Virus record (IMG/VR): IMGVR_UViG_3300042691_011658
Coordinates: 1-20,211 of that record
Reading direction: 5' to 3' (one strand)
Length of the DNA: 20,211 nucleotides
DNA from: a virus
Both the position numbers and the translations under genes were made by a program. The notes under the pieces are model-generated. The model had not been told where the DNA came from. It made no database searches and saw only the letters and a list, made by a program, of their open reading frames with translations. Shown piece after piece: positions 1,371 to 12,944 of the stretch (position 1 is the first letter of the stretch; each line of letters starts with the position of its first letter).

Positions 1371-1759
1371 CCTCCGCGGTTAAGTCCAATCCTGAGAAGT
1401 GGAAGAGAATAGTTTCTCAAGTCAAAGCTTCTGGGAAAGGTGGTCGCCCGGGGCAATGGTCAGCGAGGAAGGCACAGTTAGCTACTCAGAAGTACAAATC
1501 TTCTGGGGGTGGTTACAAAGGGCCAAAAAAAGCGGACAATTCATTATCTAGGTGGTCTAAGGAAGACTGGGGCACCCGGTCTGGAAAGCCATCTACGCAA
1601 GGTTCTGAAGCTACGGGTGAGCGGTATCTCCCCCGGCGAGCAAGAGAGAAGCTAACCGCTTCGGAGTACGCCGCCACAACGCGAGCAAAGCGTGAGGGGA
1701 TGCGGCAAGGTAAACAGTATGTCCCGCAGCCTGAATCTATTAAGAAAAAGGTGTGGTGA
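1367..1759 (+). CDS. DUF5872-like basic protein
   Basis: 130 residues, strongly basic and low in hydrophobics. It opens with SNPEKWKRIVSQVKASGKGG, then GQWSARKAQLATQKYKSSGG, then SLSRWSKEDWGTRSGKPS, then GERYLPRRAREKLTASEYAA. This order (K-S-N-P-x-x-W, GQWSARKAQ, W-x-K-E-D-W-x-T-x-S-G-K, RYLPRRARE-L-S-x-x-E-Y-A-A-T-T) is what I know as the DUF5872 pattern, reported mainly in giant algal viruses and also present in aquatic phages. No function is assigned. The charge suggests nucleic-acid or packaged-DNA contact, and its place just before the adaptor gene fits a virion or assembly role. Start and stop both overlap neighbours (ATGA at the start, TGATG at the end). Confidence 0.75.
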   Translation: MTSAVKSNPEKWKRIVSQVKASGKGGRPGQWSARKAQLATQKYKSSGGGYKGPKKADNSLSRWSKEDWGTRSGKPSTQGSEATGERYLPRRAREKLTASEYAATTRAKREGMRQGKQYVPQPESIKKKVW

Positions 1760-2391
1760 TGCCTGCTTACATGATGACCTATACCAATCTAGTCTCTGAT
1801 ATTGAGAAATATCTGGAGAGGACAGATACGGTCACAATTGAAAGAATTCCTACGTTTATCGGTCTAGCAGAGCAAGTCTTAGCTGCTGATCTGAAGTTCC
1901 TTGGGAACCTAACGGTAGCCACGAGCACGATGGTTCAGGGTGAGGCCATCATTGATAAGCCTGCTCGCTGGAGAAAGACCGTATCGATGAATGTCACGGT
2001 AGCCGGTGAGAGAAGGCCGGTACTCCTACGAAAGTATGAATACCTGCGGGAGTATTGGCCTGACCCTGCGGATACGGACGTTCCTCTTTACTACTGTGAT
2101 TACGACTATACGCATTGGTTGATTGCTCCGACGCCGGACGATGACTATACGTATGAGGTCTTGTATTACGAGAGAGTTCAGCCCTTGGACTCTTCTAACC
2201 AGACGAACTGGTTCACCCAGTACGCACCGCAGGCTCTTCTGTATGGGTCTCTTCTACAGGCGATGCCCTTCCTGAAGAATGATGATCGGATTCCGATGTG
2301 GCAGCAGCAGTACACAGCGATTGTGAACACGCTGAAGACAGAGGATGTCTCCCGTATTGGTGACCGTCAAGCAGTAGCGAGGGATTCATGA
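1759..2391 (+). CDS. Head-tail adaptor protein (SU10-adaptor-like)
   Basis: About 210 residues. The N-terminal YTNLVSDIEKYLERTD segment, then IPTFIGLAEQVLAADLKF, a central beta region (KTVSMNVTVAGERRPVLLRKYEYL, YYCDYDYTHWLIAPTP, YEVLYYERVQPL) and a helical end with TNWFTQYAPQALLYGSLLQA match the phage adaptor family that docks on the portal in short-tailed phages. The WFTQYAPQALLYGSLLQA helix and the LYYER-x-x-P-L motif are its clearest marks. The start is probably ATG at 1759, which overlaps the preceding stop (TGATG); two in-frame GTG codons at 1753 and 1756 are alternatives. The next gene starts at an ATGA overlap, linking this to the fibre and nozzle genes in one translational series. Confidence 0.85.
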   Translation: MPAYMMTYTNLVSDIEKYLERTDTVTIERIPTFIGLAEQVLAADLKFLGNLTVATSTMVQGEAIIDKPARWRKTVSMNVTVAGERRPVLLRKYEYLREYWPDPADTDVPLYYCDYDYTHWLIAPTPDDDYTYEVLYYERVQPLDSSNQTNWFTQYAPQALLYGSLLQAMPFLKNDDRIPMWQQQYTAIVNTLKTEDVSRIGDRQAVARDS

Positions 2392-3644
2392 GCTTTTTAA
2401 GCCCGTTTTATGGCAACGTGATCCAGCCAACGGATGTTTCGTTCCGTGCTGTCACGTTGTCTGCTAATACCACGTTAGAGTGGCCGATCAACGGAACCGC
2501 TACGAACAACTATGTAGCGAGGATCATGAATGTCACGGCTTCTGCTGGTAGCCTGACTTTAAGGATGCCTCCTGCAAACCAAGCTTCAGTTGGCGAGGAT
2601 TCCCTAGTTAGGAATGTTGGGGCAAATACGTTCACCCTAGCGGACTATGACGGCAACACGATCACGACGATTGCCGCGGGTGAGGCTAAGTACGTCTACA
2701 TCACAACCAACGCGACGACCGCAGGTACTTGGGGTCTGATTGCGTTTGGAGTTGGAACGAGCAACGCTGACGCTGCTGTCCTTCAGGGATACGGTCTAAA
2801 AGCGATTGGATCGACTCTCAATCAAGCGTACAACGTCAACACCTTCTCCTCTAACTACACGGCTGTAGACGGCGATAGAGCCTCTGCATACGTCTGGACG
2901 GGGGGTAGTGGCACCTTGACCCTTCCCAGTGCTTCAACGGTCGGAGAAGACTGGTTCCTGCTAGTTAGGAACGGGGGTACGGGAACGCTGACAGTTAGTC
3001 CTAGTGGCGGGCAACTTATCAACGCTGTTGGTTCGTTGCCTATGCAACCGGCAGATTCTGCGGTTGTAATTTCTTCCGGAACTGGTTGGTATACGGTAGG
3101 TCTTGGAAGGTCTACGCAATTCAACTTCACCCAGTTGACAAAAGCGGTAACGAATGGAACGTACACTTTAACGGCGTCAGAGGCCGCAAACGTAGTGCAG
3201 AAGTACACCGGAACTCTGACGAACAATGTCACTGTGGTGTTACCTGAAACGATTCAGGTTTATTACATTACAAATCAGACTGATGGTGGCGGGTCGGGAT
3301 ATCAGATCACCTTTACGACGGGGGTTTCTGGAGCTGCGATTGCAACGGTTCCGGCTGGTCAACAAGTCATTCTTCTTTGTGATTCGGTAAACCTCTACAA
3401 CGCTTCAACGATTGCTGCGGGTGCCTCTAATGTGTCACTAGTAGACGGAACAGTTGCGGCTCCAGCATTGAACTTTGCTACAGAAACGAATACGGGTATT
3501 TACAGGCCCGGATCTGGCGAGTTTGGCATTTCGATTGTAGGAAGTAAAAGGTTTGGGTTGACGGCCACGGGTTTGACTATTAGCGGCACAGGAACTTTTG
3601 GGTCTGGAACAACGGGTGGCATTTCTGGCGGGTTGTTCACATGA
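2388..3644 (+). CDS. Beta-rich virion appendage / tail-fibre-like protein
   Basis: 418 residues, almost entirely beta-prone, rich in Thr, Gly, Ser and Asn. Three related modules of about 90-100 residues are visible: about 30-122 (MPPANQASVGEDSLVRNVG), about 150-240 (LPSASTVGEDWFLLVRNGG) and a more diverged one at about 255-340 (VVLPETIQVYYITNQT). Each has a strand, a VGED-x-x-x-VRN-type turn, and an Ala-Gly loop before a W-G or W-Y strand. The C-terminus (residues 358-404) carries AAPALNFATETNTGIYRPGSG, a motif I associate with the ends of phage tail fibres and baseplate spikes. Lying between adaptor and nozzle genes, it is likely a fibre or collar protein bound at that junction and may contact the host. 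The receptor cannot be inferred. Confidence 0.7.
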   Translation: MSFLSPFYGNVIQPTDVSFRAVTLSANTTLEWPINGTATNNYVARIMNVTASAGSLTLRMPPANQASVGEDSLVRNVGANTFTLADYDGNTITTIAAGEAKYVYITTNATTAGTWGLIAFGVGTSNADAAVLQGYGLKAIGSTLNQAYNVNTFSSNYTAVDGDRASAYVWTGGSGTLTLPSASTVGEDWFLLVRNGGTGTLTVSPSGGQLINAVGSLPMQPADSAVVISSGTGWYTVGLGRSTQFNFTQLTKAVTNGTYTLTASEAANVVQKYTGTLTNNVTVVLPETIQVYYITNQTDGGGSGYQITFTTGVSGAAIATVPAGQQVILLCDSVNLYNASTIAAGASNVSLVDGTVAAPALNFATETNTGIYRPGSGEFGISIVGSKRFGLTATGLTISGTGTFGSGTTGGISGGLFT

Positions 3645-5869
3645 CGCAGAAAGTCTTTGCGTTAGATACCAAGCCCGGTATCCAGAGGGACGGGACGATT
3701 TTTGATCGTTCGTTTTATGCTGATGGCCGTTGGGTAAGGTTTCAGAGAGGTCGCCCGAGGAAGATGTTGGGATACAGGGTTATCTCAGATCAGATGTTTG
3801 GGCCATCTAGGGGTATCTGGGTGAATGCTCAGAATGCCTTTACGTCTATCTTCTCTGGATACGACAACGGCCTAGAAGTTCTGACCATTGACGACAACGG
3901 GGTTGGAGCGGGGATTGGAGAGTTTTCTCTATCGAACTTTACTGCTTCTCCGCTGAACCTCTGGCAGTTTGATGGGTTTTATGATGTTGGAGGCTCAGGG
4001 GTTCAGACGATTGTCGCTCATCCCGGGCAGAACCTACAGGCGATTGACTCTGACAACAACACGCCGGTTTTGATTGGAAATATTACCGGCACGACGATGA
4101 GTCAGATCGGGGTCTTCACCGACACGGTGACGACTACTAATCTAAGCCCTACGCTGACGCTTGCTGTCTCTAACCCTCTTATCGGGGCCGGTCAGACGAT
4201 CACGGGGGCGGGTATTCCTGCTAACACGACAGTATTGTCAGTTGTTGGTACGACGATCACGATGTCGAACAACGCCACAGCTTCGGCTACGGTGACTGCT
4301 ACGTTCAACAATAACGTAGAAGTATCTGGTGGGGTGGTGGCTCTACATCCCTACTTGTTCGTATACGGGAACAACGGACTGCTCAGGAACTGCGCTGCGG
4401 GCAACACGGATGACTGGGTGTCTAGTGACGCTAACTCGGTCAACGTAGCCACTGGAAAGATCGTACAAGGGCTTCCGGTTCGAGGTGGCTCTAACTCCCC
4501 GTCAGGACTCTTTTGGAGTCTAGATTCCTTAGTTAGGGTGTCTTATGCGCCTACTAATCTAGGTGTTCCGGGGACTGCGAACTTTGCGGTTCCGACGTTC
4601 TGGCGATACGACATCATCTCTTCTCAGACCTCAATCATGTCAAGTCAGTGCGTGATTGAGTATGACGGAATCTATTACTGGTGCGGAGTTGATAGGTTTC
4701 TTCTCTATAACGGAACGGTTAAAGAGATTCCTAACTCGATGAACCAGAACTGGTTCTTTGACAACCTGAACTACAGCCAGAGGCAGAAAGTTTGGGTGAC
4801 CAAGGTTCCTCGGTACGGAGAGATCTGGTGGTTTTATCCTAGAGGGGATGCGACAGAGTGTACGGATGCGATTATTTACAACGTCCGTGAGCAGACTTGG
4901 TATGACGCTGGTCAGGCCCTAGGGGCTAGGAGATCTGCTGGCTACTTCTCTCAAGTGTTTGCTTATCCGGTAATGGCTGGGTGGAACACGCTTCCAGAGA
5001 CGGTGATCTTTACTCAGACGATGAACGTCACGAGTGGTAGCGAGTTCATCTTCTTAGATACCTACAACACTCAAGTAGCTCTTAGGCAGGTAATTGCTGG
5101 ATCTAACATTCCTACCGGGACTTCAGTGATGGCGATCACGAGTTCTAACATAAAGACGTTGGGGGCAATCACCGCAGGGTCTGGGTATGTAGATGGGTCA
5201 TATACCGACATCCCATTTATTACTGGTTCAGGAGCAAATGCAACGGCGAACATAGGAGTTGCGGGCGGGGTGGTTACGTCAGTCAGTATTGTGAATCGCG
5301 GTGCTGCGTATCAAGTAGGGGATGTATTAGAGGTTGATGATGCCGATCTTGGCGGTGGTACTGGGTTTTCAATTCCTGTAACAGCCCTTTATTCTCAGGC
5401 AATTGAGATGAGTGATGCTGCTACGGGAACCGGAGCGGTGAGTCTTACGTTCTCTTTGCCTCCTAACAGGATTCAGATCCATCAGCATGAGATTGGTGTT
5501 GATGCGATTGACGGCCAAAACGTAGAGGCGATTGAGTCGTACTTCGAGACGAACGACCTAGGGTGGGTATCGGGAGGCCCGAGTCAGCCCGCTATGGATG
5601 GAATTAATAAGTGGCTGAGGCTAGAGAGGGTTGAGCCTGACTTCCTTCTTCAAGGGGAGATGGAGCTGTACATCACTGGCAGGCCGTATGCACAGAGTGA
5701 AGACTCCACGACTGGGCCTTACACCTTCGACTCAACGACGAACAAGATTGACATGAAAGAACAGCGTCGAGAGTTGAGGTTGAAGTTTGTCTCCAACGTG
5801 GCTGGTGGTGACTACCAATTAGGTAAAGTTGTGTTGAATGCTGATGTGGGTGATGTCAGAGGCTATTGA
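3641..5869 (+). CDS. Tail nozzle-like protein with inserted beta modules
   Basis: 742 residues. The N-terminus (FDRSFYADGRWVRFQRGRPRK), repeated aromatic beta blades (LFVYGNNGLLRNC, VIEYDGIYYWCGVDRFLLYN, TKVPRYGEIWWFYPRGD) and the C-terminus (EQRRELRLKFVSNVAGGDYQ, then LGKVVLNADVGDVRGY) fit the beta-propeller nozzle proteins at the tip of podovirus tails (SU10 nozzle / P22 gp10-like). The scaffold is interrupted by extra modules. Residues 160-222 carry a GAGQTITGAGIPANTTV-type module. A second copy of that kind begins at about 456 (GSNIPTGTSVMAI) and ends at about 604, and it is itself split by a GSGYVDGSYTDIPF module at 505-582. The family fold is inferred from motifs. Starts at an ATGA overlap with the fibre gene and ends at a TGATG overlap with the next. 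Confidence 0.75.
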   Translation: MTQKVFALDTKPGIQRDGTIFDRSFYADGRWVRFQRGRPRKMLGYRVISDQMFGPSRGIWVNAQNAFTSIFSGYDNGLEVLTIDDNGVGAGIGEFSLSNFTASPLNLWQFDGFYDVGGSGVQTIVAHPGQNLQAIDSDNNTPVLIGNITGTTMSQIGVFTDTVTTTNLSPTLTLAVSNPLIGAGQTITGAGIPANTTVLSVVGTTITMSNNATASATVTATFNNNVEVSGGVVALHPYLFVYGNNGLLRNCAAGNTDDWVSSDANSVNVATGKIVQGLPVRGGSNSPSGLFWSLDSLVRVSYAPTNLGVPGTANFAVPTFWRYDIISSQTSIMSSQCVIEYDGIYYWCGVDRFLLYNGTVKEIPNSMNQNWFFDNLNYSQRQKVWVTKVPRYGEIWWFYPRGDATECTDAIIYNVREQTWYDAGQALGARRSAGYFSQVFAYPVMAGWNTLPETVIFTQTMNVTSGSEFIFLDTYNTQVALRQVIAGSNIPTGTSVMAITSSNIKTLGAITAGSGYVDGSYTDIPFITGSGANATANIGVAGGVVTSVSIVNRGAAYQVGDVLEVDDADLGGGTGFSIPVTALYSQAIEMSDAATGTGAVSLTFSLPPNRIQIHQHEIGVDAIDGQNVEAIESYFETNDLGWVSGGPSQPAMDGINKWLRLERVEPDFLLQGEMELYITGRPYAQSEDSTTGPYTFDSTTNKIDMKEQRRELRLKFVSNVAGGDYQLGKVVLNADVGDVRGY
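4118..4306 (+). repeat. Inserted beta module 1 in nozzle-like gene
   Basis: Residues 160-222 of the 742-aa protein: a Thr-rich strand, then NPLIGAGQTITGAGIPANTT, then TITMSNNATASATVTATF. It resembles the module at 5006-5452 in order and motif (G-x-x-I-x-G-x-x-I-P-x-x-T-x-V, then a short strand, then M-S-x-x-A-T), so the two are probably homologous insertions. Confidence 0.6.
5006..5452 (+). repeat. Inserted beta module 2, itself interrupted
   Basis: Residues 456-604. The front half reads FTQTMNVTSGSEFIFLD and VIAGSNIPTGTSVMAITSSN, the back half QAIEMSDAATGTGAVSLTF. Joined, the halves reproduce the layout of module 1. Between them (5153-5386) lies a GSGY-type module. Confidence 0.6.
5153..5386 (+). 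repeat. GSGY-type module nested in module 2
   Basis: Residues 505-582: TAGSGYVDGSYTDIPF, TGSGANATANIGVAGGVVTS, RGAAYQVGDVLEV, then LGGGTGFSIPV. The pattern G-S-G-Y-x-D-G-x-Y, G-S-G-A-x-A-T, V-x-S-V-x-I-x-x-x-G-x-x-Y-x-V-G-D-x-L is one I know as a mobile beta module scattered through virion proteins of aquatic phages. Confidence 0.65.
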
Positions 5870-6125: not shown

Positions 6126-9100
6126 ATGGCAGAGATTTACGGGCCTCCAGCTCCATCTGGGCCGATTCAGCCGCAAAAGCCATTCGCTCAGCGATTAGAA
6201 GAGAGTTACTTCGCAGGCCAAAAACCGTCGCAAGAAGAGTTGCTTGGGTTTAGGCAAGTATTGTCAATGTTGCAATCAACGCAACAGACCCCCGCTGAAA
6301 TTGAAGCTAACTTCGCAAAACTTAAAAACGCAAATTTTGAGTTTTCGGGGATGTTGGGGGATGACTACTACCAAAACAAGCTTACCCAACAAATTGCCAA
6401 TCAAAGAAAGAATCTAGGCACAGAAAAGTATTACGGAGGCGATCTTGGCGCTATTGGTGGAATTGATAGCGCGACCTCCTACATGGCAAGCAGGCTTGTC
6501 AGAAGCGGCATCCGTGATCTGAGCGAGATTGGCGAGAGGCCCATTCAGGAAGATGGGGTAATCACTGGCAAGCAAATCTATAACAAGCGTACTGGTGAGC
6601 CTCTAAAGCAAGGCGACGATGCTCAGTATTACTACGCAGTCAATACGATTGCTCCAGACGCAAATCAGTACATCTTTGGCGGGACGTTTGCAGGGAAAAA
6701 TACATCTCTGAACATCTCGATGGTTGACGGAATGCCGGTGTTTTATACGACACCCGGCCCGTCAAGCTCTGACTTTGATATTAAAGACATAGCTCCGATG
6801 GTGGCGGTCGCATCTTTAATGATGCCCGGTGTCGGACAAGCGATTGGGTCGTTTGTTGTAGAGGCCGCTCTTGGCACCGCTGCCGCTCAAGGGATGTCTG
6901 CTGTTGCCCTCGGGGCTATTGGCTCTGGTGTTCTCACGACAGTATTAACGGGAGACGTTAAACAAGGTGTTTTAGCAAGCGCAGGGACGTATCTTGGCGC
7001 TCAGATGGGTGACATCATCGGAGAGACTGCTAAAGGCATCTTTGACTCTCCTGCCGGTCAGAAGTTCGCGCAGTCAATGGGTACAGCAATGACCCGGGCT
7101 GCGGTCTTAGGTCAAGATGTTTCCGAAGCGGCTATGGGCGCTGCTGCCGGAGAAGCGTTGAACCTTGTTACCGGAAGCATCCCGGGGTTCAGTGACATTA
7201 AGGATCCCAAGACAAAACTAGCAATCACTGAAGCCATTCAAGCGGGATTAAGTCAGCCGGGGTCGTTGTCGGACAGGATCTCTGCTGCTGCTTTGCAAGG
7301 AGCGGTAACGCTTGGTGCGTCTCAGATCAACGTTGACGGCAAGAAGTTTGTTGATCTTGACCCGGGGCAAAAGACGCTCGTTACTAGTGCCCTGAGTGCT
7401 GCATTGTCTGGTAAGCCGCTAGATCAAGCGTTGATCCAGAGCGCAATATCAAATGTTCAGTCGGAGTTTGCTCGAACTCTGAAACAACCGACTGCGGCAC
7501 AACCGGAAGACTTCGGCTATCAACCCGGCGTCGAAGACCAACCCATGATTGACGATCTTGGGTTTAAGCCTTCTCCGGACGTTTCTCCGGTTACCCCCTT
7601 TACTCCGGTATCTACAGAAGCGGTATCGCCTCCTACGGTTGTGCTTCCTACTGGGGTTACAGGCGCAGAGATCCCGTTCCGCAGAGAAACGTTCTTTGGC
7701 GACTTCCCGCAACTAGCGTTTGATCCGGAGACGGGGTTGATCATCCCACCTCGGCCTATACAAGCCGGGGAACGGGCTGAGGGACAGCCTGATGTTTTTG
7801 GCCCGCAGCTTCCTAGAACGTTCCCGACGCTAGACCCGTCTGCTGGTGTAGTCACAGATGTTGGCCCGCCTATCACGAGAGAAGAGCTGATCTCTGATCC
7901 TAACCAGCCTTCAAGACAGATCGTGCCGGGTTCTGCCTCGGGCGAAGTGCCGATTCAGAAAGAGACGTTAATTTCTGACCCGAATCAGCCTTCAAGGCAA
8001 CCAGCCCCGGGGACTATCCCGGGGGAAGTGCCCATGATTCGAGAGACGTTTCCAGAAGCGGATAAACAAGCAAAGACTAGAGAAGAGATCTCTGACGAGG
8101 TTTACAAACAGCTTGTTGAAAACTTTGAGAATGCCAGCCCCTCTACGTTAAGAGCGGCGGCGGATCTTGCGCTTGATTACTCATCGTTTGATCCGAACAT
8201 TCCAACCCCGATGTCGGACGCTGCGGAGCAAAACAAGAGTTTAATTGCTCAGGGGGTTGCTGACGCCTATAAGCAACTTACCGTAGCCACGCCTATTTTG
8301 CTTAAATTGCAAACAGATGCGCTGCAAGTTGATAAAGCTCAGAAGTGGCTGAGTCGGTATGATCTTGTAGATGAAGGAAGGCTCAACGAAGCATTTGCTC
8401 AGATTAACAAGGGAGATCAATATGATCAGCGGATCTTGTCTGAGTATTCCAGAGCAACGCCTGAGCAGCGAGCAGAGATTCGAGACCGCCAGAACGGAGT
8501 AATTAAAAACTCTACTGGCGCGGCGATAGAAGCAATCAAACTGTACGAACAGTTTAAGAAAGACCGGCAAGATCAAAACATCCGTGTGCCTGAGTTTACG
8601 GATATCAGGACGGACAACATAAAAGACCTTGCTGAAGACTTTAGCAAATGGTTGCAGTACAACGTAGGAGCTGGATCGGTATCCACTGCTACGGTTATGC
8701 TTGGCGCGCTTATTGGAGGGCCTGTAGGTGCGTTAGCGGTCAGCACGCCGATGGCTACAGGCGAGGCGCTTGCAAACCGCATGAAGTACCTGTCTGAGGT
8801 CTATAAGGGCAAGTCTCCGGACGAGACCGCTTCTTCCGTATTGGAGTATCTCAACAAGACCGGAGAATCCAATTTAGTGATTGGCGCTATATCGGGCGCT
8901 CTGGATTTAATGGGGCCGGTAGGTACTGCGCTACGCAGGCAAGCGACTAACACTCTTGCAAAAGAAGTCATTGAGCGCCCTGTTGTTGGCGCTTTGAAAA
9001 ACGTTTCCAAGGAGATGATTGAGGAAGCGTTTACTGGAGGTATGCAAGAGCTTACTCAAATCCTTGGTGAGCGTTATCTTGGCGAGCAAGAAGGGACGTT

Positions 9101-11942
9101 CTTAACTGTAGCAAACGCAAAGAGGCTGATAAACAGCGCAGCCGCGGAAGCTGCGGGTAGTCTCGGCGGTTCGGGGATCAACATTGCAACTGCTTCAGGT
9201 GCAGAGCAATGGAAAAACAAAACAATAGAAATTGCAAAAGAACACGCAAGGGAAGAAGTTGCGGCAAGGCAAGTTTTATATCCTGACCTTCAGAATCCTC
9301 AAACCCCAGAACAAGCCGTTCAATACAGGCAAGCCCTCGATAGGTTATCAGACCCTACGACTAGTAGAAGCGTTACTGAGTTTGATTTGTACGGATCAGG
9401 CTTTTCGGAAGTCCCCATCAACAAGCCTGAGTTTGGAGTTAAATCGTCAACTCAGACTTTAGAAGGCTCGACTGTCTACAACCTTGGTGATGGTTACGCA
9501 GCGTTAGAAGATGCGTTTGGAGGCATCAAGGTTATCAACGAGGCGGGAAGAGTAGTTCCGTTGACTGCTAACGAAGTGACGGACTTGTATGACACGGTCA
9601 TTGAGCCATACAAGAAGCAGCAGTTGACTAAGGAAGTTGCTAAACCTGTTGATCAAACTGTAGATACGACAGGAACGGTTGTAGATACCGGTGGAGTTCG
9701 GCTAACGGTTCCTGTGGATACCTCTGGAACAAGTCAGCCAACCGGAACAACGCCTGTAATTGTTACTCCGCCAACCGGGTCTACTCAGCCGGTAGTTACA
9801 GATACGTCTCGGCCTACAGATACAACTGGCGGCGGGACGAAGCTTGTAGTTACGGAGCCGACCGTGGTTGACACTACGGTCAACAAGCCAGCAGGTACTT
9901 CAACTAGCTCTGTTACAGGGGATGCGACAGGCACTTCAACCACTGTAGTCACTAGACCCGAGGTTACAGACACAAGCGGTTTGTCGTCAGGCGCAACCGT
10001 AACGAATCCAGATGCCATAGCAGCGTTAAACATGGTTTTAGGAAAAGCGCCGGTGGATTTGCGGTTTGATATTGATAAGGACGGAGTTGTAAGCGCATCA
10101 GATGTTCTGTCAATTAGCCGCGGGGCAACGGTTCCGCAGTCATTGCCAGCAGACGCCACTAAAGTTGGAACTGGTGTTGTTGCCGATAGTGGCGCTACGG
10201 GTACTCCGACTAACGTTGTTTCAGGAACCGGTAGCTCCACAGTTGTAGATACAGGCGCTGGTACCGCAACCGGTGTAGTTCCGGGTGCCGGAACAGGCAC
10301 TCCTACTGGAAGCATAACGAATACTAGCGGTGCAGGCACTGGGGCGGGGACGGTAGTAGATACCGGCAAAGCAACGGTCGTAGATACCGGTAAAACAACC
10401 GATACTACTGATACAGGCAAGGGCACAGGTACCGTTGTAGACACTGGCAAGGCAACTGATACTGGGAAAACGGTGGTTTCTACAGGCACCACCAATGTAA
10501 GCGACGGTACTGGAGGTGCAACAGTAATTGGTGATAAAACGGTTACAGATACAAAACCTGTGGTAGATACTGGAAAAACGGTGGTGACAGATACGGGAGG
10601 CACATCTCCCGTCACTACTGACACTACTGGAGGTGCTACGGTGACAACACCCGCGCCGCTCACAGAAGAACAGATTAGAAAAATTGTTAACGATGCTTTG
10701 GTAGCAAACCCGAGCCTTTCCGAGTCGGATGTTAAGAGAATCGTTGGCGATGCTGTTTCTAAGATCCCCGGCTCAATTACTGCCGCTGATGTAAAGTTTG
10801 TTGTTGATGACGCAATTAGTAAGCTTCCTAAAACGCCTACGGTTGCGGACATCACTGGCGCTGTCAACTTGGCGACTACAGGGTTTGCGAAGCAATCTGA
10901 CATTGACTTAGCGATTTCTAACATCAAGTTCCCTTCTTCCCTATCTAGGGAGGATGTTCAGGGAATTGTTAGAACGGTAATGCAAGAAAACCCCGGGTTG
11001 AGCATTACTGACGTTCAAGGGGCTATCAATACTGCTATAGCTAATCTTCCGGCTGCGGCTTCTCCGTCGGATGTTAATAGGGCTATTTATAACACCGTTG
11101 GCAACCCATCAGTTATTGATGATCCAAACACTCCTGAAGACGAATCAAAACCAGCGACGGGCATATATGCGGTCATTGAGTCTTCTCAAGAGAAGTCAAA
11201 GCAGCAAATTTCTGATCTAAAGAAAGACCTAGAAAAACTCACTACAGAACAAGAAACACAAAGAAAGGCCGCTAAAGCAGCCGAAGAGCAAAGCCGTCAA
11301 AGGTCTCTCCTAAACCTTGGCACCTCAATGCTGGGTGGCGCTGCCGGGGCTGGAATACTCGGCGGCTTAGGAGCCTTGGGTGCTGCTCCTACTGCTCTGC
11401 CTCCATTGAAGGGATTGACTACTGGAGAGGCTACTAAGGATGAGTTTGTCAGCCCTCTAGCTGCATTCCAAAAACAGATTGGGTTAACTCCTCAACAAGA
11501 AACAAAACCGGAAGAACAGGATAGAACCATGCCGTACTTCAGTTATGGTCAACCCAGTGAAGTAGCTTCAGTCCTCAATTTGCAAGATGAGGAAGAGCAG
11601 CTAGTAGCCAAAGGGGGTCTTATCACGCCTCTGATGGCTTCTGGAGGGCTTCCAGTCGTACACTATGCAGGTAAGCCAAGGATCGATTTCAGGAAAGGCG
11701 CTTATGTGCAAGGCCCGGGAGATGGTCAGTCGGATGACATCCCTGCGATGCTTGCAGATGGGGAATACGTCTTTGATGCTGAGACGGTGGCGGCTCTTGG
11801 AAACGGTTCAAACAAAGCCGGAGCTAAGTTGCTAGACAAGATGAGAGAACAGATTCGCGCTCATAAGCGCGGCGGTTCATTGAAAAAGATTCCTCCGGCA
11901 AGCAAGTCCCCGTTGGAATACCTTGCAATGGCTAAGAGGTAA
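6126..11942 (+). CDS. Giant mosaic virion protein (1938 aa), probable internal/ejection protein
   Basis: By far the longest gene. Order seen: residues 1-215 mixed alpha/beta with a VDGMPVFYTTPGPSSSDF strand region; 216-300 Ala/Gly-rich hydrophobic (two or three possible membrane spans); 455-640 Pro-rich linker with a 27-residue direct repeat; 640-840 helical; 843-936 hydrophobic (TATVMLGALIGGPVGALAV and LVIGAISGALDLMGPVGTAL); about 960-985 with EEAFTGGMQELTQILGERYL; 1176-1508 Val/Thr/Asp/Gly repeat linker containing a dockerin-like Ca loop (1315-1326); 1512-1665 seven helical repeats; 1680-1728 coiled coil; 1729-1765 Gly/Ala-rich hydrophobic; a C-terminal cap with GDGQSDDIPAMLADGEYVF. No enzyme domain recognised. 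Large size, membrane-active stretches and a position after the nozzle gene suggest a DNA-ejection or internal virion protein. A tape-measure-like role is the alternative. GAGG lies upstream of the ATG. Confidence 0.75.
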   Translation: MAEIYGPPAPSGPIQPQKPFAQRLEESYFAGQKPSQEELLGFRQVLSMLQSTQQTPAEIEANFAKLKNANFEFSGMLGDDYYQNKLTQQIANQRKNLGTEKYYGGDLGAIGGIDSATSYMASRLVRSGIRDLSEIGERPIQEDGVITGKQIYNKRTGEPLKQGDDAQYYYAVNTIAPDANQYIFGGTFAGKNTSLNISMVDGMPVFYTTPGPSSSDFDIKDIAPMVAVASLMMPGVGQAIGSFVVEAALGTAAAQGMSAVALGAIGSGVLTTVLTGDVKQGVLASAGTYLGAQMGDIIGETAKGIFDSPAGQKFAQSMGTAMTRAAVLGQDVSEAAMGAAAGEALNLVTGSIPGFSDIKDPKTKLAITEAIQAGLSQPGSLSDRISAAALQGAVTLGASQINVDGKKFVDLDPGQKTLVTSALSAALSGKPLDQALIQSAISNVQSEFARTLKQPTAAQPEDFGYQPGVEDQPMIDDLGFKPSPDVSPVTPFTPVSTEAVSPPTVVLPTGVTGAEIPFRRETFFGDFPQLAFDPETGLIIPPRPIQAGERAEGQPDVFGPQLPRTFPTLDPSAGVVTDVGPPITREELISDPNQPSRQIVPGSASGEVPIQKETLISDPNQPSRQPAPGTIPGEVPMIRETFPEADKQAKTREEISDEVYKQLVENFENASPSTLRAAADLALDYSSFDPNIPTPMSDAAEQNKSLIAQGVADAYKQLTVATPILLKLQTDALQVDKAQKWLSRYDLVDEGRLNEAFAQINKGDQYDQRILSEYSRATPEQRAEIRDRQNGVIKNSTGAAIEAIKLYEQFKKDRQDQNIRVPEFTDIRTDNIKDLAEDFSKWLQYNVGAGSVSTATVMLGALIGGPVGALAVSTPMATGEALANRMKYLSEVYKGKSPDETASSVLEYLNKTGESNLVIGAISGALDLMGPVGTALRRQATNTLAKEVIERPVVGALKNVSKEMIEEAFTGGMQELTQILGERYLGEQEGTFLTVANAKRLINSAAAEAAGSLGGSGINIATASGAEQWKNKTIEIAKEHAREEVAARQVLYPDLQNPQTPEQAVQYRQALDRLSDPTTSRSVTEFDLYGSGFSEVPINKPEFGVKSSTQTLEGSTVYNLGDGYAALEDAFGGIKVINEAGRVVPLTANEVTDLYDTVIEPYKKQQLTKEVAKPVDQTVDTTGTVVDTGGVRLTVPVDTSGTSQPTGTTPVIVTPPTGSTQPVVTDTSRPTDTTGGGTKLVVTEPTVVDTTVNKPAGTSTSSVTGDATGTSTTVVTRPEVTDTSGLSSGATVTNPDAIAALNMVLGKAPVDLRFDIDKDGVVSASDVLSISRGATVPQSLPADATKVGTGVVADSGATGTPTNVVSGTGSSTVVDTGAGTATGVVPGAGTGTPTGSITNTSGAGTGAGTVVDTGKATVVDTGKTTDTTDTGKGTGTVVDTGKATDTGKTVVSTGTTNVSDGTGGATVIGDKTVTDTKPVVDTGKTVVTDTGGTSPVTTDTTGGATVTTPAPLTEEQIRKIVNDALVANPSLSESDVKRIVGDAVSKIPGSITAADVKFVVDDAISKLPKTPTVADITGAVNLATTGFAKQSDIDLAISNIKFPSSLSREDVQGIVRTVMQENPGLSITDVQGAINTAIANLPAAASPSDVNRAIYNTVGNPSVIDDPNTPEDESKPATGIYAVIESSQEKSKQQISDLKKDLEKLTTEQETQRKAAKAAEEQSRQRSLLNLGTSMLGGAAGAGILGGLGALGAAPTALPPLKGLTTGEATKDEFVSPLAAFQKQIGLTPQQETKPEEQDRTMPYFSYGQPSEVASVLNLQDEEEQLVAKGGLITPLMASGGLPVVHYAGKPRIDFRKGAYVQGPGDGQSDDIPAMLADGEYVFDAETVAALGNGSNKAGAKLLDKMREQIRAHKRGGSLKKIPPASKSPLEYLAMAKR
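7872..8033 (+). repeat. Tandem 81-bp (27-residue) direct repeat
   Basis: Units 7872-7952 and 7953-8033 encode ITREELISDPNQPSRQ plus IVPGSASGEVP, and IQKETLISDPNQPSRQ plus PAPGTIPGEVP. A third partial start follows (MIRETFPE), and an earlier PFRRETFFGD may be a degenerate relative. The DNA copies differ at many third positions, so the duplication is not recent or has been kept by protein-level selection. It lies in the Pro-rich linker of the giant protein. Confidence 0.85.
9650..10650 (+). repeat. Val-Thr-Asp-Gly low-complexity repeat tract
   Basis: Roughly 330 codons dominated by Val, Thr, Asp, Gly, Ser and Pro. They contain irregular copies of VVDTGK / VDTTG / TDTGK (densest at about 10350-10480 and 10555-10635) and of GAGTGT/GTGTVVDTG. 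At DNA level the recurring core is GTAGATAC(C/T)GG. It is interrupted only by the dockerin-like segment at 10005-10134. Probably a flexible or extended stalk between the membrane-active half and the helical repeats of the giant protein. Confidence 0.8.
10005..10134 (+). other. Dockerin-like / EF-hand-like calcium loop segment
   Basis: Encodes NPDAIAALNMVLGK followed by FDIDKDGVVSASDVLSISRG. Residues D1315, D1317, D1319, G1320, V1321 and D1326 match the 12-residue dockerin/EF-hand calcium loop D-x-(D/N)-x-D-G-x-(I/V)-x-x-x-D, followed by a helix DVLSIS. The first half keeps the helix (DAIAALNMVLGK) but has no obvious acidic loop before it, so this looks like one intact and one degenerate duplicated motif. 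Confidence 0.65.
10660..11125 (+). repeat. Seven degenerate helical repeats
   Basis: Residues 1512-1665 hold units of about 18-24 residues with a D-(V/I)-x-x-(I/V/A)-(V/I) core: EEQIRKIVNDAL, ESDVKRIVGDAVSKIPG, AADVKFVVDDAISKLPK, QSDIDLAISNIKF, REDVQGIVRTVMQENPG, ITDVQGAINTAIANLP, PSDVNRAIYNTVG. Units are separated by short Pro/Ser turns (NPSLS, IPGSI, LPKTP, FPSSLS, NPGLS, LPAAAS). One further weak unit (VADITGAVNLATTGF) lies between the third and fourth. Probably a helical rod or packing platform. Confidence 0.7.
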
Positions 11943-11945
11943 ATC

Positions 11946-12944
11946 ATGGCATTCCTACAAGGCGCACCGCTTCCAGATATCAAAGAGACGACGACTCGTG
12001 CTCAGGAAGCCCCGCAGTATTACACCGACTATCTCTCTGGATTAGCCGGAGCTGCTCAAACAGCGATGGGGAGAACTCCCCAGCAGATGATTGCTGGGCT
12101 GGATCCTTTGCAGATGCAGGCGTATCAGGCCACTCCGGGTGCTGCTGGTGCGTATAAGCCGGGGCTAGCTGCTGCGACGGGGAATATTGCTCAGACTGCT
12201 CAGGGGATCACTCCCGAGAAGATCGGGCAGTTCATGAACCCGTATACGCAGAACGTAGTAGAGGAGATGGCTCGTCTTGCGGAGCAGAACGTTTCTCGAA
12301 ACATCCTCCCGGCTCTGAAAGCGGGGATGGTTGGCTCTGGTCAGTTGGGATCTCAGCGGTATGCCGGGGCACTCGGACAAGGGCTTGCAGAGGCTTCTAA
12401 GACCCTTACAGGCCAACAATATGGCGCTCTGTCTGAAGGCTATAAGACCGCGGTAGATGCTGCTCTCAAAGAGATGAATCTTGAGACGGAAGCCGCTAAG
12501 ACTCAGGCGAACATCTCGAAGCTCGCGCAGGATCTTGGATTAGCTGAGACGGGTGCTCTTGAGAAGATGGGTGCAACACAGCAAGCCTATCAACAAGCTC
12601 TTCTAGATGCTCCGCTGAAGACCGCAACGCAGGCGCAGGGGCTGCTCAGGGGCTTCACGATTCCTCAGACGGAGACGACAACGTTTGTTGGCCCGAAGGC
12701 GGGAGCGTATGGGTTGTCGGATCTTCAGCAGGTTCTTGGTCTGATGTCTGTGTTGGGGTCGGCTAAGGCGGGAAGCCCGTTGGAAACTGGATTGAACGCG
12801 CTGTTTAGGTCGTTGACGAGAAATACGCCAGCAAACCCAGCATATGAGTCATATAGTGGCGCTCCTTACGCGACAACAAGCGATGGTAGCGATGATGGCC
12901 TTAATGCTGGCGGTTCGGGATCTTCAGAATATACGGGGCCGTAA
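11946..12944 (+). CDS. Internal/ejection protein candidate (332 aa)
   Basis: Rich in Ala, Gly and Gln. Helical segments surround the central FMNPYTQNVVEEMARLAEQN, then ILPALKAGMVGSGQLGSQRY, then AGALGQGLAEASKTLTGQQY. The pattern NPYT-x-x-V(V/I)-(D/E)-x-x...(S/G)-x-x-G-x-GS-R is common in a family of phage virion proteins encoded just after the largest internal protein. I read it as an ejection or internal-core component acting in the periplasm or tail lumen, but that role is by position and composition. The C-terminal 60 residues are disordered and Ser/Gly-rich (TTSDGSDDGLNAGGSGSSEY). The ATG follows the giant gene by 3 nt, with AGAGG as ribosome site inside that gene's last codons. Confidence 0.7.
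   Translation: MAFLQGAPLPDIKETTTRAQEAPQYYTDYLSGLAGAAQTAMGRTPQQMIAGLDPLQMQAYQATPGAAGAYKPGLAAATGNIAQTAQGITPEKIGQFMNPYTQNVVEEMARLAEQNVSRNILPALKAGMVGSGQLGSQRYAGALGQGLAEASKTLTGQQYGALSEGYKTAVDAALKEMNLETEAAKTQANISKLAQDLGLAETGALEKMGATQQAYQQALLDAPLKTATQAQGLLRGFTIPQTETTTFVGPKAGAYGLSDLQQVLGLMSVLGSAKAGSPLETGLNALFRSLTRNTPANPAYESYSGAPYATTSDGSDDGLNAGGSGSSEYTGP

Follow-up and report, generated by a model that had tools for sequence, protein, structure and literature searches.

A single-loop dockerin-like domain recurs in linkers of large virion-type proteins from uncultured phages

Archaeal dockerin–cohesin pairs have been verified to bind (PMC9012536), and among phages a dockerin likeness is on record for gene 40 of the podovirus VvAW1, which was reported to resemble dockerin type I by blastp and was described close to a putative attachment site (PMC3558961). 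The BFVD structure library also holds a phage protein named 'Dockerin type 1', so dockerin-like phage proteins are not new as such; we found no description in the literature of dockerin modules within phage virion linkers. Here we describe such an element in the IMG/VR virus record IMGVR_UViG_3300042691_011658, which at its full 20,211 bases is the stretch we analyzed and is called the window below. The element lies in a giant open reading frame (ORF). Over 45–50 residues it runs from a dockerin helix 1 through a shortened D-L-R-F connector to one complete calcium loop and the helix that follows. Judged from sequence and predicted fold, it is a single-loop dockerin relative and by definition not a full dockerin, because it has one loop, its copy in the window scores below the Pfam cut-off and 25 phage records contained no cohesin.

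Because the element recurs in about 20 other environmental phages at different linker positions, the comparisons indicate that it is a real, reusable module rather than a chance motif. We gathered 22 distinct copies from uncultured phages, mostly inside Thr/Gly/Pro-rich linkers of large virion-type proteins, using neighboring-gene and C-terminal-motif searches, a four-copy alignment search and a DNA pattern combined with a profile filter. A single-sequence search of viral contigs with the element returned nothing, whereas the four-copy alignment search succeeded. The element profile (A9) aligns over its whole length to 22 other phage records and matches the window at 9993–10139 (E = 1.5e-21, with the window copy itself part of the profile). 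Its place in the protein ranges from 0.13 to 0.81 of the length, with some proteins truncated at a contig end, and in three records (L185, L188 and L133) it is near the N-terminus, outside the central linker. One record (L023) carries a pair of copies in Pro/Thr-rich linkers, separated by 165 residues, and in another (L016) the element lies in a linker shortly 5' of RTX-type calcium repeats. An initial annotation, made from the window alone, had suggested looking for the same segment in different linker contexts in phages, and these copies are that segment. Isolated phages gave no convincing match to the element or its relatives, PHROGs gave none to the window copy, NCBIfam gave none over cut-off and PADLOC returned nothing for the large proteins.

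Across the 22-copy alignment, D23 (just before the loop), D27, D31, G32 and D38 (loop positions 1, 5, 6 and 12) are invariant, while loop position 3 is always D or N and loop position 8 always V or I. The loop that the initial annotation had read as D-x-D-x-D-G-x-V-x-x-x-D, from D1315 (codon 10068–10070) to D1326, is present in the window, and the flanks have the Val/Thr/Asp/Gly-rich, low-complexity composition claimed for them. Its expectation that homologs keep the acidic positions held wherever the element exists, but two close relatives lack the element entirely. One alternative is that an Asp/Gly-rich linker produced an EF-like motif by chance, and loose motifs of this kind did arise in ~1% of shuffles (204 of 20,000). 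The strict motif D.[DN].DG.[VI]...D was rarer, occurring in 10 of 20,000 protein shuffles and 16 of 20,000 linker shuffles, which makes chance unlikely, yet the motif alone does not exclude it. Conservation is the stronger evidence for the element as judged from the alignments: the match to other phage records extends over some 50 residues, the L016 copy (found via its neighboring gene) and both L023 copies (found via the C-terminal motif) keep every ligand with the loop not searched, and the predicted fold is confident. We regard a chance origin as refuted by the 22-copy alignment and extremely improbable.

Using that alignment, AlphaFold2 (AF2) modeled residues 1289–1340 with a mean predicted local distance difference test score (pLDDT) of 85, rising to ~90 over residues 11–40, and a predicted template modeling score of 0.63; a first run with four sequences (pLDDT 55) was set aside. 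The model contains a helix at 7–16, a one-turn helix at 24–26, the loop from 27 and a helix at 36–43, so that the helices placed before and after the loop by the initial annotation are both recovered. Dockerins are the closest structures in the Protein Data Bank (PDB) to this helix-loop-helix fold: the top Foldseek match was the type I dockerin 1ohz_B (probability 1.00, template modeling score 0.67/0.62), all 13 rows reported by VIA-align were dockerins (Z = 2.8–4.7), and dockerins ranked first when the profile was compared with PDB sequences (E ~1e-7). Pfam Dockerin_1 matched 22 of 22 copies, and four of nine copies tested individually exceeded the gathering cut-off for dockerin type I (PF00404, 22.9 bits), with 23.2, 23.5, 24.0 and 29.0 bits. 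The loop has the 12 residues of a dockerin loop, with D or N at positions 1, 3 and 5, D at 12 and a hydrophobic residue at 8. EF-hands differ in having a helix immediately ahead of the loop and a Glu at position 12 (Asp in all 22 copies), and their models matched fewer copies and more weakly than did Dockerin_1. The proposed dockerin resemblance therefore stands: fold, profile match, first helix and the Asp at loop position 12 all favor it over a generic EF-hand. It does not extend to the two tandem calcium-loop/helix repeats (~22 residues each) of a dockerin, as only one loop carries ligands.

The element also has relatives in an archaeal genome. A Methanosarcinales metagenome-assembled genome contains eight matches to the element profile (best E = 2e-13), which form a graded series from two-loop dockerins (L208 and L209) through a domain with a degenerate first loop (L206) to single-loop domains (L204 and L202). 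The phage element aligns without gaps through helix 1 with the archaeal domains and is 43% identical to L202 over 42 gap-free residues; the Asp at position 12 of loop 1 is kept in eight of eight aligned sequences. In the window, the residues at positions 7–12 of this loop retain V8, T9 and D12, and the loop-1 ligand positions 1, 3 and 5 are absent. A profile of the pre-loop part only scored L202 and L206 above all 2,000 shuffles each and the other three archaeal domains above at least 1,988 of 2,000, so the likeness is not confined to the calcium loop. Most simply read, the phage element would be a dockerin whose first calcium loop eroded to V-T-x-x-D. A match in Sphingomonas (L203) proved to be an ordinary EF-hand-type protein rather than a copy, and a search of 398 genomes of its phylum with profile A9 found nothing at E = 1e-5, a result of little weight.

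The fold and profile matches, together with archaeal relatives from a group rich in dockerin and cohesin proteins, would also suit a genuine dockerin bound to a cohesin that the host or another virion protein displays. We consider this quite unlikely, as the first loop is lost, loop positions 10–11, which in dockerins are usually read as specificity residues, vary between copies, and a search confined to the 25 phage records, which are fragmentary, gave no cohesin (PF00963) at E up to 1.

Comparison of related phages points to selection on the element. The elements of the window and L100 share 63% of their nucleotides and 65% of their amino acids, and they differ by 15, 8 and 33 nucleotides at codon positions 1, 2 and 3 (nonsynonymous divergence, dN, 0.27; synonymous divergence, dS, saturated), while the N-terminal 1,200 amino acids of the two proteins are at background identity (~20%). 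From this pattern, the element is evidently under purifying selection, while the rest of the linker does not align. Its distribution is patchy. The nearest relative (L002) is 93% identical to the window in the C-terminal region and is without the element and much of the middle, and the linker of L015 lacks the element, yet the DNA just 3' (window 10170–10300, ~140 bases) is 82% identical. As the nozzle proteins of these relatives are 89–92% identical, the element was gained or lost on a short time scale. Another 50 records share the C-terminal motif, and profile A9 detected the element in none of them; a positive control was run with the same profile. Such absences would be expected of a passive hitchhiker, that is, a neutral folded insert tolerated in a spacer without harm, but strong purifying selection inside a non-aligning linker, and reappearance in about 20 phages that conserve the ligands, make this very unlikely.

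Two further segments in these relatives are not counted as copies. A segment of L002 (DALAALKKQLGRS...LPAD) was placed on helix 1 by MAFFT, but DNA comparison gave short chance matches only, and it was not used as a relic. The N-terminus of the giant protein of L015 (4627–4662, amino acid 42 of the open frame) carries a dockerin-type loop, DLNKDGRVDDTD, to which A9 matches over the loop only (14 bits). At the place matching this loop, the N-terminus of the L016 giant ORF has a degenerate DVTGNGVYDIED.

The protein that carries the element probably belongs to the virion particle, on the basis of synteny with the isolated Caulobacter phage GB2A and the uncultured MW202545, which share the gene order of the window. 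From N to C, it consists of an N-terminal region, Gly/Ala-rich hydrophobic stretches, a long linker, coiled repeats and a conserved C-terminal GDGQSDDIPAMLADGEYVFDAETVAALGNGS region, the last of which is common to the equivalent proteins of GB2A and MW202545. The GB2A equivalent has only ~580 amino acids and is annotated as a tail length tape measure protein. Genes for a phage lysozyme, an SU10-type adaptor, a tail-fiber-like protein and a nozzle/stabilization protein (53% to the 'phage stabilization protein' of MW202545) precede the giant gene, which is located between the tail nozzle gene and ejection genes, as an internal or ejection protein would be (Table 1). Gene order agrees with the phage internal or tail protein of the initial annotation. 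The middle region at window 8060–9300 (amino acids ~645–1060) is common to L023 and absent from L002, though L002 is closer in the N- and C-terminal parts, which suggests that the giant gene is mosaic. Within the nozzle protein, window 5100–5400 (amino acids 487–586) is 41–45% identical to gp7 baseplate wedge and fiber proteins of cyanophages, which are otherwise unrelated myoviruses.

Table 1. Position of the dockerin-like domain, its parts and its surroundings in the window
Feature	Position	Strand	Basis
Single-loop dockerin-like domain, residues 1289–1338 (GATVTNPDAIAALNMVLGKAPVDLRFDIDKDGVVSASDVLSISRGATVPQ)	9990..10139	+	Profile A9, 22-copy alignment, AF2
TVTNPD, putative vestige of dockerin calcium loop 1, positions 7–12	9996..10013	+	Gap-free alignment with archaeal dockerins
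Helix 1 (PDAIAALNMV), predicted	10008..10037	+	AF2 with A9; pre-loop part alone matches archaeal dockerin helix 1
Predicted 12-residue calcium loop, D1315-I-D-K-D-G-V-V-S-A-S-D1326	10068..10103	+	Translation, 22-copy alignment
Helix after the loop (ASDVLSIS), predicted	10095..10118	+	AF2
Giant ORF, 1938 amino acids, open throughout	6126..11942	+	ORF reading, translation
Thr/Val/Gly/Pro low-complexity linker, N-terminal of the domain	9642..9986	+	Composition, translation
Thr/Gly/Val/Asp low-complexity linker, C-terminal of the domain	10140..10655	+	Composition, DNA comparison
SU10-type head-tail adaptor (context)	1753..2391	+	Pfam PF24175, E 7e-25
Tail nozzle/stabilization protein, 742 amino acids (context)	3641..5869	+	PHROG 3287, E 1e-24
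Ejection-type virion protein, directly 3' of the giant ORF (context)	11946..12944	+	PHROG 4287 DNA ejection protein, E 1e-5

With a rough probability of 55%, we favor a role as a calcium-folded bead that gives a multi-copy virion protein a tether or pairing point. The initial annotation had put forward calcium-switched folding following ejection or, as speculation, a tether to proteins of the host surface. The ligand set of the loop suggests that the element binds one Ca2+. Free Ca2+ is sub-micromolar in the cytoplasm and ~0.1–10 mM in natural waters, so the bead is expected to be empty during assembly and loaded outside the cell or in the periplasm. During synthesis and packing of the giant protein in the host cytoplasm, it would carry no ion and be loose; outside the cell in the particle, or once delivered into the periplasm, Ca2+ would load the loop and the bead would fold. 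The folded bead would then expose a helix-loop-helix face as a docking point on a flexible tether, for which the candidate partner is a second copy on a neighboring subunit or a cohesin-like surface; single EF-type halves often pair. The step from folded bead to tether is the least certain.

As no cohesin was found in the 25 phage records, we favor a tether or pairing point; its main rival is a partner-free folding switch, or ratchet, in which the bead would help to pull or lock an ejected (pilot) protein in the calcium-rich periplasm. The giant gene does sit between a nozzle gene and the gene of an ejection-type protein, and two element-bearing giant virion proteins also contain RTX repeats (PF00353), the classic export-then-fold calcium motif: L016 at 7470–7760 (E = 6e-21) and L106 at ~797–820 of the open frame (amino acids). 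We nevertheless think a switch unlikely, since one or two small beads per ~2,000 amino acids would supply little pulling force, the three near-N-terminal copies lie outside the central linker, and ejection of the giant protein is itself read from gene order.

Several observations weigh against a calcium-folded, dockerin-derived tether. Loop positions 1, 3, 5 and 6 formed part of the search patterns, and for copies obtained with those patterns the invariance is to some extent built in; no pattern contained positions 8 and 12. The AF2 run was ion-free, and Ca2+ binding is predicted from the loop residues. The structural scores are modest (Foldseek E = 0.08, VIA Z < 5), because the domain is small (~50 residues), and the window copy reaches 14.9–15.7 bits (about 15–16) against PF00404, below the cut-off. 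The absence of the element from L002 and from the L015 linker implies that it is dispensable. In 2 of 23 element-bearing records the protein with the element also has RTX repeats that pass the Pfam cut-off, against 0 of 50 element-free records, and this association is not significant.

A second group of calcium-loop proteins came to light in these phages. At L005 (2012–2500), L118, L136, L164, L189 and ~55 further loci, small phage proteins (~160–195 amino acids) have holin-like hydrophobic segments at the N-terminus and a conserved single calcium loop (EPWEKYRNDLRYDVNGDGVVDENDFPDWR) at the C-terminus, besides an acidic linker. The L005 gene is near the same virion cassette, and the group had no match among isolated phages.

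Many phages need calcium for infection, for reasons that are often unknown, and a small calcium domain that recurs in linker regions of large virion proteins would offer a concrete site for such dependence. The persistence of a conserved dockerin fold with a single calcium loop, in phages and in methanogen-related archaea, bears on the origin or decay of dockerins, and the sub-threshold score of the window copy is relevant to annotation. More broadly, uncultured podovirus-like phages might exchange a family of single-loop dockerins that sit in flexible virion linkers and show calcium-dependent self-pairing or docking; this viral counterpart of cohesin–dockerin assembly is a tentative and somewhat unlikely idea which, if true, would serve in the particle or at the host envelope.

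Set beside known systems, the element shares a dockerin likeness with VvAW1 gene 40, which is not described as a virion linker domain (the two were compared by description only). With RTX nonapeptide repeats it shares a calcium theme, as RTX folding is calcium-dependent and occurs outside the cytoplasm, and the two co-occur in L016 and L106, but the folds are unrelated and the window has no RTX repeats. EF-hands (PF00036, PF13202 and PF13405) likewise have a DxDxDG loop followed by a helix, whereas in the phage element helix 1 stops ~10 residues before the loop and position 12 is Asp, not Glu. The Methanosarcinales domains L202 and L204 have the same single-loop build and helix 1 but are C-terminal on large extracellular-type proteins (L202 being repeat-rich and NosD-like), in a genome that additionally encodes full two-loop dockerins. 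Type I dockerins (PF00404; 1ohz, 2ccl, 2y3n and 2mte) share with the element the Asp-12 calcium loop, helix 1, post-loop helix, fold and calcium ligands, while the phage element has its loop 1 reduced to V-T-x-x-D and a connector several residues shorter, and it stands mid-protein between virion-protein linkers, where a dockerin is found at the end of a secreted enzyme and paired with a cohesin.

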